The translations under genes were made by a program, and so were the position numbers. Positions 6,598 to 28,677 of a stretch of 64,000 nt of DNA are shown here, one piece after another. Source of the stretch: an uncultured Clostridia bacterium (GTDB lineage Bacteria > Bacillota > Clostridia > Christensenellales > HGM11417). The DNA lies in contig CALVJY010000008.1 of assembly GCA_944332455.1 (NCBI GenBank), positions 1-64,000 of the forward strand. The letters are read 5' to 3'. The notes beneath the pieces are model-generated. The model was given only the letters and a program-made list of their open reading frames with translations, was not told where the DNA came from and ran no database searches. Position 1 is the stretch's first letter. Every line of letters starts with the position of its first letter.

Positions 6598-6910
6598 ATC
6601 TTTCGCCCCGGCAAATTTCAACAAATTTTGACAAATTTCACTTTCCCCCCACACGGCCTTCCCCGGGACAAAAAAACCGGCCGGCCGCGGCGAGCCGGTC
6701 GGGTCCGCAAATGAGGGTTCAGGCCTAGAAGGCGCTCCTCCCGCCTCTTTCTGATACGCAGGCCCCTCCCTTAGGCCCGAGATCGATTCGGCGGGGCCGC
6801 CTTCGGGAGGGGAAGCGAGCGAAAAGGACCGGCCGGCCTCCCTCGGAGCGGGGGCTTGGGAATCCCCGCGGGAAGAGCAGCCCAAAAGCCGGACGGGCCA
6901 AAATTCGTCG
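6598..6910. other. Gene-free spacer downstream of the PolC-like gene
   Basis: No credible gene. A short minus-strand frame across it is proline/glycine-rich low-complexity sequence without family resemblance. The segment holds the terminator at 6670-6699 and GC-rich inverted repeats. No remnant of a polymerase domain could be recognised in any frame. Confidence 0.55.
6670..6699 (-). terminator. Intrinsic terminator for ispG/PolC-like transcript
   Basis: Minus strand: an ACCGGC...GCCGGT stem with a GC-rich interior is followed directly by seven T (6676-6670). It lies about 210 bp after the PolC-like stop codon and just upstream of the xpt promoter. Confidence 0.7.
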
Positions 6911-8458
6911 TCAGGCCGATGCCTTTTGCGGGGGATATTTGATCTTCATGACCTCCAGAAAGATCCTGGCGCAGGTCAGGGCGTCGTCCAGGGCGCGGTG
7001 GGCGGACCCCACGTCGATGCCGAAGCGGGCCGCCACCGTCTTTTGCTGCAGGTTGGGCAGGCCCTTGACGTTTTCCCGGGCCAGTTCCATGGTGTCGAAC
7101 AGTTCGTTCTCGAAAAAGTAGCCGTTTTTCTTGGCGGCGAACTGCAGAAATTTGATGTCAAACTCGATGTTGTGCCCCACCAGAGCGGCCCCCCGGGTAA
7201 ACTTGAAAAAGTCCGGCAGGACCTCCTCGATCTTAGGCTGTCCCCGCACCATGTCGTCGGTGATGTGGTTGACGGCGGCCGCGCTCTCGGGGATGGCGCG
7301 CTCGGGGTCGATCATGGTGTGGAAGCCCTCGCAGATCACCCCGTTCTCGATCCTGACCGCGCCCAGCTCGATGATGCGGTCGAGGTCATAGTACAGCCCG
7401 GTGGTCTCGGTGTCGAAGACCACAAAGGTCCTGCCCAGCAAAAAGGGCGAGACGGAGCTGTCGGCCGCCTCGAAGAGGTTCTCCTGGGCGCTGAGCTCGA
7501 TCTTTTTGGGAAAGACGACGGCATAGTGTTCGGGCGCGGGCTTGGAGGGCATGGGGGCGGGCGTGAACTCGGTGGGGAGCGAACACAGTTCGATGTCCCG
7601 GATCCAGAAGCACAGCCCGCTGCGCTCGTCCTCCCGCAGCTCGCCCTGAGCCAGGATTTCGTGCTCGCCCTCCTCCTCGAAGACCTTCATCTTTTCCAGA
7701 TTCTTTTCCGAGCTGAAGTACAGGCAGGACACGCTGCCCGTGAAGTCCTTCAGCGTAAAGCGGAACATGTGCTTTTCGGTCTTGGTCAGGCGGTAGGAAA
7801 AGCGCTCCACTTTGCCGCACAGCACCACGCTTTTCCGGGGCTTTTCCATGTCGATGAGGTACTCGGCCGCCGGGCTCTCGATGGGAGAGCCCACCAGAGG
7901 CCGGGGATCGCGTATGTAGATGCGGCGGAGCTGTTCGGGGCGGCGGTATCCCCCCTCGGGGGCCTGGGGCAGCCCCTCGGCCAGCAGGGACTCGTAGCGC
8001 ACTTCGACCTCGAACGGCTCGCAGAAGGTCTGTTCCAACAGGTCCGCCAGGGCGTAGGGAAAGCGGTTCTGCTCGACGTAGGGCCGGACAGCGGGGTCGG
8101 CCCGGAAGAGCAGGCGGGTCTTTTTGCCCTCCCCGGCCGGGACCACCTTTTCCAGCGCCAGGCACCCCGACAGCGCCGGGGCGTGCTTTTTGAGATAGTC
8201 GGTCAAAAAGCCGGTCAGGATCTCCTCGTCGAAGTAGGCCCTGCGGATCTCGGCCTCCACCGACCTGACGCAGTCGGGGACCAGCTCGGCGGCGGTCTTC
8301 TGCACTTCCTCCCGCAGGGCGGAGGTGACCGGCCGCTTGATCAGAAACAGCAGCTTCAGCTTGCCGGTGCGCCGGAAGTAGACGGCCTCCTTTAAGAAGA
8401 GGCCGCCCTCCACCTGCACCCGGCTGTTGATCATCTCGCAGAGCTTACTTTCTTTCAC
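6911..8458 (-). CDS. Shortened PolC relative: N-terminal region + OB fold + DEDDh exonuclease
   Basis: A 515-residue protein resembling the first half of Gram-positive DNA polymerase PolC. Residues 1-200 match the PolC N-terminal style; an OB fold is at about 205-300 (VVLCGKVERFSYR onward); a DnaQ-type proofreading exonuclease runs from about 343 to 505. Exonuclease residues are intact: FDTETTGL (D349, E351), GHNIEFD and AHRALDDA. The PHP and polymerase domains of a PolC (usually about 1400 residues) are absent. The gene starts 14 bp inside the end of ispG, the usual place of polC in Clostridia, so it looks like a polC that lost its polymerase. It could act as a free exonuclease; a full polymerase must be encoded elsewhere. 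Confidence 0.8.
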   Translation of the reverse strand: MKESKLCEMINSRVQVEGGLFLKEAVYFRRTGKLKLLFLIKRPVTSALREEVQKTAAELVPDCVRSVEAEIRRAYFDEEILTGFLTDYLKKHAPALSGCLALEKVVPAGEGKKTRLLFRADPAVRPYVEQNRFPYALADLLEQTFCEPFEVEVRYESLLAEGLPQAPEGGYRRPEQLRRIYIRDPRPLVGSPIESPAAEYLIDMEKPRKSVVLCGKVERFSYRLTKTEKHMFRFTLKDFTGSVSCLYFSSEKNLEKMKVFEEEGEHEILAQGELREDERSGLCFWIRDIELCSLPTEFTPAPMPSKPAPEHYAVVFPKKIELSAQENLFEAADSSVSPFLLGRTFVVFDTETTGLYYDLDRIIELGAVRIENGVICEGFHTMIDPERAIPESAAAVNHITDDMVRGQPKIEEVLPDFFKFTRGAALVGHNIEFDIKFLQFAAKKNGYFFENELFDTMELARENVKGLPNLQQKTVAARFGIDVGSAHRALDDALTCARIFLEVMKIKYPPQKASA

Positions 8459-9494
8459 GTCTTTCCTCGCACATTTCTTCCAGGATCTTCAGAAAGGCGG
8501 CCTCGGCCTCGGCCTGCGGCAGCGTACAGAGGACCTCTCCCTGCCGGAAGATCACGCACTTCCCCTTTCCGCCCGCGATCCCGAGGTCTGCCTCCTTTCC
8601 CTCGCCGATGCCGTTGACCGCGCACCCCATGACCGCCACCTTTAAGGGAACGGTCAGGCCGGCCGTCAGCCGCTCCACCCGCTCGGCCAGGCCGACCACG
8701 TCGCACTCGGTGCGGGCGCAGGTGGGACAGGCGATCACTTCCACAAAGCTTTTGTCCACCCCCACCGCCCGCAGGATCTGCCGGGCGGCGTAGACCTCCT
8801 CCACCGGATCCCCGCTCAGGCTGACCCGGATGGTGTCGCCGATGCCATCCAGAAGCAGGGCGCCCAGCCCGGCCGCGCTCTTGATCAGGCCGCTTCGGAC
8901 CGTCCCGGCCTCGGTCACCCCGATGTGCAGGGGGTAGGGCAGGTCGGCCAGCATCCGGTTGGCCGCCACCGTGCCCGCCACGTCCGAGGACTTGGCCGAG
9001 ACCACGATCTGATCAAAATCCAGATCCTCCAGGAGTTTTACGCTCTCCCGGGCGCAGCGGGCCAACGCCTCCGGCGTGCGGCCGTATTCCGCCAGCAGGC
9101 GCTCGGGCAGGGAGCCCGAATTGACCCCCACCCGGATGGGGATGTCCGCCCTCTTGCAGGCGGCGACCACTTTTTTCAGGCCCTCCGGCTCCATGTTTCC
9201 GGGATTGATGCGGATCTTGGCCGCCCCGTTTTCGGCCGCGCGCACGGCCAGCCGCCAGTCGTAGTGGATGTCGGCCACCACGGGCAGCGGAGACTTTTTG
9301 CAGATGACCTTCAGGGCCTCGGCACTGGGGAGGTCGGGCACCGAGACCCGGACCAGCGGACAGCCGGCCTCGGCCAGCCGTCCGATCTGGGCCAACACCT
9401 CTTCGGTCCGCTCGGTCCGGACGTTGGTCATGGACTGGATGATCACCCCTTCTCCCAGCGCGAGGGGCCCCACCCGGACAATTCTCTTTTTCAT
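8445..9494 (-). CDS. ispG: 4-hydroxy-3-methylbut-2-en-1-yl diphosphate synthase (IspG)
   Basis: A 349-residue iron-sulfur enzyme of the MEP isoprenoid pathway. Seen: the TIM-barrel start VGPLALGEGVIIQSMTN, the cluster-binding region ACPTCARTE near residue 262, and the third Cys in MGCAVNGIGEG followed by ADLGIAGG. The start at 9494 is preferred because the alternative ATG at 9515 overlaps the promoter -10 box. Its last 14 bp overlap the start of the PolC-like gene, suggesting translational coupling. Confidence 0.95.
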   Translation of the reverse strand: MKKRIVRVGPLALGEGVIIQSMTNVRTERTEEVLAQIGRLAEAGCPLVRVSVPDLPSAEALKVICKKSPLPVVADIHYDWRLAVRAAENGAAKIRINPGNMEPEGLKKVVAACKRADIPIRVGVNSGSLPERLLAEYGRTPEALARCARESVKLLEDLDFDQIVVSAKSSDVAGTVAANRMLADLPYPLHIGVTEAGTVRSGLIKSAAGLGALLLDGIGDTIRVSLSGDPVEEVYAARQILRAVGVDKSFVEVIACPTCARTECDVVGLAERVERLTAGLTVPLKVAVMGCAVNGIGEGKEADLGIAGGKGKCVIFRQGEVLCTLPQAEAEAAFLKILEEMCEERRERK

Positions 9495-17946: not shown

Positions 17947-17989
17947 TGTGACCGAATCACAGATTTTTGACTGCCTTTTGGGGTATCCT
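17947..17989 (+). promoter_or_regulatory. Crp/Fnr-type operator and activator-dependent promoter
   Basis: A perfect palindrome TGTGA-CCGAA-TCACA (17947-17961) precedes a -10-like TATCCT (17984-17989). The palindrome centre lies about 42 bp before the expected start, the class II activator position. No good -35 is present at the right spacing, as expected for an activated promoter. The spacer is 5, not the 6 of enterobacterial CRP sites. Confidence 0.6.
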
Positions 17990-18029
17990 TTGGGTACGAT
18001 ATTTTTTGAATCCAAAGGAGATGCTCATC

Positions 18030-18347
18030 ATGTCTGAATTAAAGATCACCAAACAGAATTTCGAATCCGAAGTGCTGCAGGCCGAAGTACCCGTCCTCCT
18101 GGATTTCTGGGCCCCCTGGTGCGGCCCCTGCCGGATGCTCTCCCCCGTCGTGGAGGAGCTGGCACGGGAAGTCGGCGACCGGGCCAAGATCGGCAAGGTC
18201 AACGTGGACGAGGAACCTGAACTGGCGGCGGCCTTCCAGGTGGCCGCCATCCCGACCGTCGCCGTGGTGCGGGGCGGCAAAGTCGTCTCCTCCTCGGTGG
18301 GGTTCCGGCCCAAAAACCAGCTGGCCGCCATGCTGGAGGCCAAATGA
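18030..18347 (+). CDS. trxA: Thioredoxin
   Basis: A 105-residue thioredoxin with the active site WCGPC at residues 30-34 and the conserved cis-Pro in AAIPTVAVVRGG. The start at 18030 has AAAGGAG upstream; the longer frame from 17967 would run through the promoter. It is the first gene of the operon with rhodanese and CoA-disulfide-reductase-like genes and overlaps the rhodanese start (ATGATG). Confidence 0.95.
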   Translation: MSELKITKQNFESEVLQAEVPVLLDFWAPWCGPCRMLSPVVEELAREVGDRAKIGKVNVDEEPELAAAFQVAAIPTVAVVRGGKVVSSSVGFRPKNQLAAMLEAK

Positions 18348-18667
18348 TGGGGCTGCTCGATCTCTTCCGGCGGCCGGGCACGGACGAGGGCGTACGGGAG
18401 TTCCTGGCCACGCCCGGGGCCGTCCTGCTGGACGTCCGCACCCCGGCCGAGTTCGGCGAGGGGCATATCGGGGGCAGCCTGAACTTCCCTCTGGACCGGA
18501 TCGAAAGCCTGCCCGAGCGGGTGGCGGACCGGAACACCCCGATCTTCGTCTATTGCAGGAGCGGGGCAAGGAGCGCCCGGGCGGCAGCCGCGCTCCGGCA
18601 GATGGGATACCGACAAGTCAAAAACATCGGCGGGATCGCCGACTATCACGGAAAGGTGGTGCATTGA
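18344..18667 (+). CDS. Rhodanese-like sulfurtransferase
   Basis: A 107-residue single-domain rhodanese. The active-site loop is YCRSGARSAR with Cys71, preceded by LLDVRTPAEFGEGHIGGS. It probably carries persulfide sulfur for the oxidoreductase encoded next, 1 bp downstream, which has its own rhodanese domain. Translationally coupled to thioredoxin. Confidence 0.93.
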   Translation: MMGLLDLFRRPGTDEGVREFLATPGAVLLDVRTPAEFGEGHIGGSLNFPLDRIESLPERVADRNTPIFVYCRSGARSARAAAALRQMGYRQVKNIGGIADYHGKVVH

Positions 18668-18668
18668 T

Positions 18669-20351
18669 ATGAAAGTCGTGATCGTGGGCGGAGTCGCAGG
18701 CGGCGCAACGGCCGCAGCCCGGCTCCGCCGTCTGGACGAGAAGGCCGAGATCGTCATCTTCGAGCGCTCGGGCTACGTCTCCTACGCCAACTGCGGCCTG
18801 CCCTACTACATCGGCGGGGTCATCGAGGATCAGCGGGAGCTGACCCTGCAGTCCCCCCAGAGCTTCTGGCGGCGGTTCCGCGTCGCGGTCAAGGTCCGCC
18901 ACGAGGTGCGGGCCGTCAACCGCACCCGAAAGACGGTGACCGTCTGCGCCCTGGATACCGGCGAGGTCTTTGAGGAATCTTATGACAAGCTGATCCTCTC
19001 CCCCGGCGCGCTGCCCGTCCGGCCCGAGCTTCCCGGCGTCGGCAGCAGCCGCATCCTGACCCTGCGCACGGTGGAAGACACCCTCCGCATCCGGCAGGAA
19101 GCCGAGCGGGAGGAGCTTGCGGACTGGACGGTCATCGGCGGCGGCTTTATCGGTCTGGAAGCCGCCGAAAACCTGCGGGAGCGGGGCCGCCGGGTGCGCA
19201 TGATCCAGCAGGATCCCCACGTGCTGGCTCCCCTGGACGGGGACATGGCCTCCTTCCTCCACGCCCATCTGCGGGCCAAGGGGGTGGAACTGCTCCTCGG
19301 CCGGAACGTGACCGGCTTTGAGGAGCGCGGCGAGGGGTTGACGGTGCGGACCGACGGCGGGGACCTTGCCACCGACCGGGTCCTTCTGGCCGTGGGCGTG
19401 CGGCCGGACTCGGCCCTGGCCCGGGAGGCCGGCCTGAAGCTGGACGTCCGGGGCAGCATCTGGACGGACGACCGCATGAGGACCTCGGATCCGGACATCT
19501 ACGCGGTGGGCGACGCCGTCTCGGTGCCCCACGCCGTCACCGGACAGCGGGCGGTCATCGCCCTGGCCGGACCCGCCAACAAGCAGGGGCATGTCGCCGC
19601 CGATCAGATCGCCGGCCTGGACAGCCGCTACCGCGGCTCCCCCGCCTCCTCGGTGCTCAAGGTCTTTGACATGACCGCCGCCTTCACCGGGCTGAACGAG
19701 GAGGCCGCCCGGGCGGCCGGGCTGGATTTTGACAAGGTCATTCTGGCCCCGGCCTCGCACGCCTCCTACTACCCCGGCGGCAGGGTGATGACCCTGAAGC
19801 TGCTGTTCGAGCGCCGGACCCTCCGCATCCTGGGCGCCCAGATCGTGGGCTTCGAGGGGGTGGACAAAAGGCTGGACGTCATCGCCGCCGCCATGCAGGC
19901 CGGACTGAAGGCTTCCGACCTTGCCGATCTGGATCTGGCCTACGCCCCGCCCTACTCCTCGGCCAAGGATCCCGTCAACATGGCGGGCTACCTCGTCCGC
20001 AACCTGACGGAGGGACTGGTGCGGCAGTTCTGCTTCGAGGACCTGCCCTCCCTGCCCCGGGAGGCCGTCCTGCTGGACGTCCGCACCCCCGGCGAATACG
20101 CCCGGGGCCACGCCGAGGGATTCGAGACCCACATCCCGGTGGACGACCTGCGGGAGCGCCTCGGAGAGCTGGATCCCGCAAGGCCGGTCTATGTGATGTG
20201 CCAGTCCGGCCTGCGGAGCTACATCGCCTGCCGCATCCTCGCCCAGCACGACTTTACCTGCTACAACTTTGCGGGGGGGTATCGCCTGTACGAGAGCCTC
20301 ACCCGGGACCGCTTCGACGCCCAGAGCCGCACCGACTGCGGCCTCCGCTGA
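18669..20351 (+). CDS. CoA-disulfide reductase-like flavoprotein with C-terminal rhodanese
   Basis: A 560-residue pyridine nucleotide-disulfide oxidoreductase. FAD site VIVGGVAGGATAAARLR at the N-terminus; redox Cys42 in SYANCGLPYY; NADH site VIGGGFIGLEAAENL; FAD-binding DIYAVGDAV; a dimerisation domain and a rhodanese domain with Cys511 in MCQSGLRS. This is the CoADR-RHD or NADH-dependent persulfide reductase architecture, acting on CoA disulfide, persulfide or polysulfide. With thioredoxin and rhodanese it forms a thiol/sulfur or oxygen stress operon. Confidence 0.94.
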   Translation: MKVVIVGGVAGGATAAARLRRLDEKAEIVIFERSGYVSYANCGLPYYIGGVIEDQRELTLQSPQSFWRRFRVAVKVRHEVRAVNRTRKTVTVCALDTGEVFEESYDKLILSPGALPVRPELPGVGSSRILTLRTVEDTLRIRQEAEREELADWTVIGGGFIGLEAAENLRERGRRVRMIQQDPHVLAPLDGDMASFLHAHLRAKGVELLLGRNVTGFEERGEGLTVRTDGGDLATDRVLLAVGVRPDSALAREAGLKLDVRGSIWTDDRMRTSDPDIYAVGDAVSVPHAVTGQRAVIALAGPANKQGHVAADQIAGLDSRYRGSPASSVLKVFDMTAAFTGLNEEAARAAGLDFDKVILAPASHASYYPGGRVMTLKLLFERRTLRILGAQIVGFEGVDKRLDVIAAAMQAGLKASDLADLDLAYAPPYSSAKDPVNMAGYLVRNLTEGLVRQFCFEDLPSLPREAVLLDVRTPGEYARGHAEGFETHIPVDDLRERLGELDPARPVYVMCQSGLRSYIACRILAQHDFTCYNFAGGYRLYESLTRDRFDAQSRTDCGLR

Positions 20352-28510: not shown

Positions 28511-28516
28511 AGAGGT

Positions 28517-28660
28517 GTTCTTTGGGGCAGGGTGAAATTCCCTACCGGCGGTGACAGTCCGCGAACAGCCTTTTCGGCTGCCGAGCCCGGCGAAATTCCG
28601 GCACCGACAGTGAGGCCGTCAAATCTTTCAGGGCGGCCGCAGTCTGGATGAGAAAAGAAC
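28517..28660 (+). ncRNA. FMN riboswitch (RFN element)
   Basis: All hallmark segments are present: GGGGCAGGGTGAAATTCCC, ACCGGCGGTGACAGTCCGCG, ATTCCGGCACCGACAGT and AGTCTGGATGAGAAAAGAAC. The closing stem P1 pairs GTTCTTT (28517-28523) with AAAAGAAC (28653-28660). It binds flavin mononucleotide and controls the riboflavin transporter gene downstream through the terminator at 28678-28708. Confidence 0.97.
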
Positions 28661-28677
28661 GGTTCTTTCCGCCATCC

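Follow-up and report, generated by a model that had tools for sequence, protein, structure and literature searches.

Introduction

Surveys of bacterial replicases recognise three sets, namely DnaE1 alone, PolC with DnaE1, and PolC with DnaE3 (PMC3919608, PMC12926913). Clostridia that possess only DnaE1 have been described (PMC3919608), as have standalone DnaQs (PMC12926913). PolCs that lack the Exo insertion make up 6% of PolCs and are found in Clostridia and Negativicutes (Timinskas 2013, PMC3919608). The DnaE of B. subtilis brings in PolC through physical contact, and its errors are corrected in trans by the PolC exonuclease (PMC5627055). The N-terminal domains of PolC are reportedly related to domain V of τ (PMC12926913), and the consensus for binding to the sliding clamp is QL[S/D]LF or QxxLF (PMC12309361).

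The locus described here lies in a 64,000-nucleotide stretch of DNA (referred to as the window) from an uncultured Clostridia bacterium. It encodes a 515-residue protein, referred to as the short form, which consists of PolC-type N-terminal domains (NTD), an OB fold, a linker and a DEDDh exonuclease, and which occupies the place of polC in a large clade of gut Clostridia.

The gene and its operon slot

The features of the locus, all on the minus strand, are as follows.

6911..8458, minus: PolC-derived NTD-OB-linker-exonuclease gene, 515 aa (open reading frame; RNase_T, E 1.9e-37)
7994..8458, minus: PolC-type N-terminal domains I and II, residues ~1-155 (profile-profile match; model)
7580..7924, minus: OB fold, residues ~179-293 (PF01336, E 2e-4; model strands 179-293)
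7472..7486, minus: QENLF, residues 325-329, predicted sliding-clamp-binding motif (conservation; shuffle test)
6938..7429, minus: DEDDh 3'-5' exonuclease domain, residues 344-507 (profile matches; model)
8445..9494, minus: ispG (gcpE), the upstream neighbour (PF04551, E 3e-127, above the NCBIfam cut-off)
6681..6698, minus: terminator-like hairpin and T run, 213 nt beyond the stop of the short-form gene

The short-form gene has an intact reading frame, from a GTG start at 8458 to a stop codon at 6911-6913, and its GAGGA-type ribosome-binding site is placed in the tail of ispG. The latter runs from an ATG at 9494 to a stop at 8445-8447, and its 3' end shares 14 nt with the short-form gene. In relatives, full polC directly follows ispG, which upholds the claim of an earlier note on this sequence that the gene lies at the polC position, after and overlapping ispG. 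The downstream terminator that the same note had proposed is only weakly supported, as the six terminator-like matches of this region only mildly exceed the chance expectation of 3.9.

Short-form loci are arranged as dxr-rseP-(ispG)-short-rimP-nusA, and polC loci show the same arrangement. Among 58 short-form loci, rimP is located downstream in 49 and ispG upstream in 39. Within the dxr-rseP-ispG-polC-rimP-nusA operon, the short gene takes the place of polC. In the window's genome only the link to ispG is left, and dxr, rseP, rimP and nusA are no longer found beside the ispG and short-form pair. In several members with small genomes (loci L063, L074, L076, L078, L080, L089, L090, L098 and L100), rseP stands directly upstream of the short gene, at the place of ispG, which has apparently moved from the locus or been lost.

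Elsewhere, the window contains an FMN riboswitch at 28514-28663 (RF00050, 86 bits) and, at 17967-20351, a cluster with a thioredoxin, a rhodanese-like protein and an FAD-dependent oxidoreductase carrying a C-terminal rhodanese-like domain; the names in this cluster were assigned by reading the sequence.

Domain architecture and predicted fold

The AlphaFold2 model of the window protein, built from an alignment with 48 relatives, has a mean pLDDT of 90.7, with a partly flexible linker between the OB fold and the exonuclease. Its N-terminal part forms two small α/β domains (residues 5-92 and 94-155). The PolC N-terminal Pfam models match none of 25 short-form members, and recognition of this homology therefore required profile-profile comparison: hhalign matches the N-terminal half of the short form along its whole length to the N-terminal domains and OB fold of PolC (286 columns, probability 99.6, E 1.5e-24). 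The best PDB match of the window protein in Foldseek is full-length E. faecium PolC (9qpc, 377 columns).

The RNase_T profile covers residues 346-500, and none of the catalytic residues D349, E351, D434, H487 and D492, all present here, varies among 25 aligned relatives. The best family profile and the best PDB sequence matches of the exonuclease are PolC exonucleases. The domain also scores with the DinG, PRK06807 and PRK07883 exonucleases and lies above the cut-off of the DnaQ epsilon model TIGR00573 (123.3 against 71.5), but well below that of the proteobacterial DnaQ model TIGR01406 (98.4 against 222.7 bits). No PHP or C-family polymerase domain was found in the window protein by Pfam, NCBIfam or the AlphaFold2 model. 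The architecture claimed earlier, with a PolC N-terminal region, an OB fold and an intact DEDDh exonuclease and without PHP or polymerase, was thus borne out by profile searches, hhalign and the model.

Replacement of PolC in a single clade

The earlier note had called for a search for other polC or dnaE genes. PolC is absent from the window's genome, a draft of 53 contigs that is 94% complete, and the single PF07733 match, on contig 4, is DnaE1, the only C-family polymerase. A split PolC with its polymerase encoded elsewhere was considered and rejected for this genome, as DnaE1 is the only such match. Besides the short-form gene, no other RNase_T/DnaQ-type exonuclease was found in this genome. 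DnaE1 proteins of short-form genomes have conserved PHP active-site residues and a canonical QxSLF clamp motif; because both are kept, DnaE1 appears, as inferred from its sequence, to have the features that a sole replicase needs.

Across 396 genomes of the order, PolC is present in 120 and a strong short form in 204, with both in none, and no PolC-level match was found in the order's short-form genomes. The families divide cleanly into 17 with PolC and 16 without, and it is these 16 that share the short form, in more than 200 genomes. Most of the remaining genomes, with neither PolC nor a strong short form, belong to families with diverged short forms. Named members of the clade include Candidatus Gallimonas and Candidatus Coproplasma, both of which we take to lie within GTDB Christensenellales. 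One genome (G330) of an otherwise PolC-bearing family (f11) is 94% complete and has neither PolC nor a short-form match, which may reflect an assembly gap or a second loss.

When DnaE proteins were placed in a tree with outgroups, the 29 genuine short-form genomes all fell into one clade, with a support of 100. This count leaves out genome G041, which was first labelled as short form. Its candidate (L138:2912-3832, contig C28) was rejected as a short form outside the clade; it is a 307-aa Cas2-DEDDh-type fusion next to a cas1-like gene and other CRISPR-associated genes, which imitates the short form in searches, and G041 likewise lacks PolC. The short form was found in none of 277 genomes from other orders of the same class and in none of 397 other genomes sampled from the phylum, and viral contigs gave matches to the exonuclease part only. 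The distribution points to a clade-wide replacement of PolC by the short form in gut Clostridia, which probably arose once, in the common ancestor.

A predicted clamp motif in the linker

In PolC, PHP-N is located between the OB fold and the exonuclease, and the distance from the start of PHP-N to the exonuclease has a median of 86 residues. In the short form this place is taken by a linker of ~46 residues that is mostly variable. Within it, the QENLF motif stands out by its conservation in 74 relatives, with Q325 kept in 66, a hydrophobic residue at 328 in 73 and F or L at 329 in 68. The pattern Q..[LIMFV][FLMY] is present in 64 of the 74 linkers, against a mean of 6.9 and a maximum of 16 after shuffling. 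The motif has a pLDDT of 65-78 and fits the criterion of a QxxLF in a flexible region that applies to sliding-clamp binders. Members without a good linker motif are L014, L018, L062, L139 and L152. The protein at L139:3157-4554 (genome G032) is a 466-aa variant with an intact exonuclease, apparently without the OB fold as well as without QxxLF.

Of 29 PolCs, only 2 have a clamp-type motif at the linker place, whereas 28 have one within the final 10% of the chain. The short form is not a plain truncation of PolC, because a linker with a conserved motif, predicted to bind the clamp, stands where PolC has PHP-N. The earlier description of a PolC remnant is supported as to derivation from PolC and not as to a simple cut-down. 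It seems likely that the short form gained a new clamp motif after losing the C-terminal one of PolC, with binding itself inferred in both statements.

Descent of the exonuclease

A phylogeny grouping the protein with DinG or DnaQ-type exonucleases would have refuted the earlier view, and this did not come true. In a tree of 167 columns, short forms are placed next to PolC exonucleases, with weak support (47/75), and form a group of their own (87/94). A tree in which they join the other DnaQs instead withstands the AU test (p-AU 0.31). Exonuclease phylogenies are short of signal, and the window exonuclease is pulled toward long branches. Because support for the PolC placement is weak and the DnaQ grouping is unrejected, neither retention of the PolC exonuclease nor a domain swap can be excluded.

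Selection and repeated loss of the active site

Synonymous sites are saturated in most pairs, for which dN/dS is unusable. The closest usable pair gives 0.065 overall and 0.031 for the exonuclease, indicating strong purifying selection. The proposal that this is a working gene and not debris held, with its intact frame, this ratio and its presence in more than 200 genomes.

The DEDDh catalytic residues are intact in 71 of the 74 relatives of the main set. They are lost in family f17 (genera g20 and g44), in six of the eight sampled genera of f20 and in genus g83 of f32. Intact sites survive in two further genera of f20 and in f32 outside g83, which makes three or more separate losses the simplest reading. 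The lineages without the site still have the whole protein at its operon slot, with a linker motif of the form Q-x-x-[LFMI]. Even in the dead exonuclease domains, non-synonymous sites change far less than synonymous ones, and the fold has therefore been retained. Several of these genomes carry separate small DnaQ-like exonucleases, as do some genomes with a live exonuclease. Because the protein persists in three lineages with an inactivated exonuclease, proofreading cannot be its sole function, and a second, non-catalytic bridging or scaffold role is probable, as inferred from this retention. The suggestion of a detached proofreading subunit is hence supported, although proofreading remains inferred and may be only part of the function.

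Proposed mechanism and alternative explanations

The reading considered likely is that a single ancestral event gave rise to a PolC-derived, clamp-tethered, epsilon-like proofreading subunit for DnaE1 with a second scaffold role. The architecture, the locus, the mutual exclusion with PolC, the single clade, the conservation of the motif and the intact active sites are observed; clamp binding, proofreading and bridging are inferred. PolC would have been reduced once, in place, in the clade ancestor to ~515 aa comprising the N-terminal domains, the OB fold, a new motif-bearing linker and the DEDDh exonuclease, leaving DnaE1 as the only replicative polymerase. The QxxLF motif would anchor the protein to the DnaN clamp next to DnaE1, and the OB fold and N-terminal domains, the latter acting as a docking module, would place it on single-stranded DNA or a replisome partner. 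The exonuclease would trim the misincorporated 3' ends of DnaE1, beside the predicted-active PHP of DnaE1 itself, and a bridging role without catalysis would exist in addition to proofreading. By analogy with B. subtilis, and as inferred from architecture and conservation, the short form probably keeps the parts of PolC needed for trans-proofreading and adds a clamp tether. A point against a proofreading subunit is that the PHP site of DnaE1 is intact, so that DnaE1 might proofread alone. A bolder reading, which could as easily prove wrong as right, is that DnaE1 works, in a replicase layout distinct from those known, with a PolC-derived, clamp-tethered accessory subunit, made once by replacing PHP and polymerase, in which the tether to clamp and single-stranded DNA is the core function and the proofreading exonuclease was lost on three or more separate occasions.

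Several alternatives can be weighed against the favoured reading. The protein may be mainly a replisome scaffold, in which the N-terminal domains, OB fold and clamp motif bridge DnaE1, clamp and single-stranded DNA and the exonuclease is a dispensable extra. This is less likely but remains possible, given the dead-exonuclease lineages of f17, f20 and f32, which nevertheless keep the protein, slot and motif, and the constraint on their dead domains; against it stand the complete catalytic residues of nearly all main-set relatives and the fact that this is the only RNase_T exonuclease in the window's genome. A domain swap, in which everything from PHP onward gave way to another, DnaQ-like exonuclease fused to the retained PolC N-terminal domains and OB fold, would fit the observation that the OB fold and Exo are not directly adjacent in PolC, as well as the separate grouping of short-form exonucleases and the unrejected DnaQ tree. 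The best tree and the best family and PDB sequence matches point to PolC instead, and on balance a swap is possible but the less likely course.

That the protein is a general DnaQ-type exonuclease for repair or for trimming single-strand or RNA ends, outside the replisome and linked to PolC by history only, draws on the versatility of DEDDh domains and on the DinG, PRK06807 and PRK07883 scores. It is unlikely in view of the strict mutual exclusion with PolC, the PolC N-terminal domains and OB fold, and the clamp motif, which is conserved although the rest of the linker varies. A sequencing error, assembly gap or decaying pseudogene masking a full polC is conceivable for an incomplete draft of many contigs, but is all but excluded by the intact frame, the purifying selection, the confidently predicted fold and the sharing of the short form across 16 families, none with PolC, which rules out the sequencing error that the earlier note had named as a refutation.

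Significance

The short-form protein is undescribed in the open-licence literature searched, including papers that deal, for gut Clostridia, with the loss of PolC or with drugs against it, and the same literature holds no earlier description of the fate of the other functions of PolC after loss of its polymerase. The clade displays the steps, from loss of the polymerase, through an exonuclease kept on a new predicted clamp tether, to loss of the exonuclease in some lineages with the tether kept, and points to an undescribed organisation of bacterial DNA replication. If proofreading is as inferred, the short form is a natural form of the B. subtilis-type trans-proofreading of DnaE by PolC (PMC5627055). 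A protein of 515 aa also makes the role of the PolC N-terminal domains directly testable. The gut bacteria of this clade are predicted to lack the target of PolC inhibitors such as ibezapolstat, which bears on the commensals that are spared.

Comparison with known systems

The short form resembles PolC in N-terminal domains I and II, the OB fold, the DEDDh exonuclease and the slot between ispG and rimP. It differs in size (~515 aa against ~1,430 aa), in lacking PHP, the polymerase core and the C-terminal clamp motif, and in the new motif in the linker between OB fold and exonuclease. With E. coli DnaQ (ε) it has in common a separate DEDDh exonuclease, a DnaE1 replicase and a predicted clamp motif, but it has PolC N-terminal domains and an OB fold in front, places the motif before the exonuclease, falls below the TIGR01406 cut-off (98 of 222.7 bits) and has no PHP-binding tail shown. 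The non-canonical mycobacterial and putative Treponema DnaQs (PMC12926913) are likewise extra DnaQ-type proofreaders beside a PHP-active DnaE1, but are of other architecture and origin, not derived from PolC as far as PMC12926913 describes. In the Exo-less PolCs, too, the PolC polymerase and exonuclease have been separated in Clostridia, and these are the mirror image of the present case: there the polymerase is kept without Exo, whereas the short form is NTD-OB-Exo without the polymerase.
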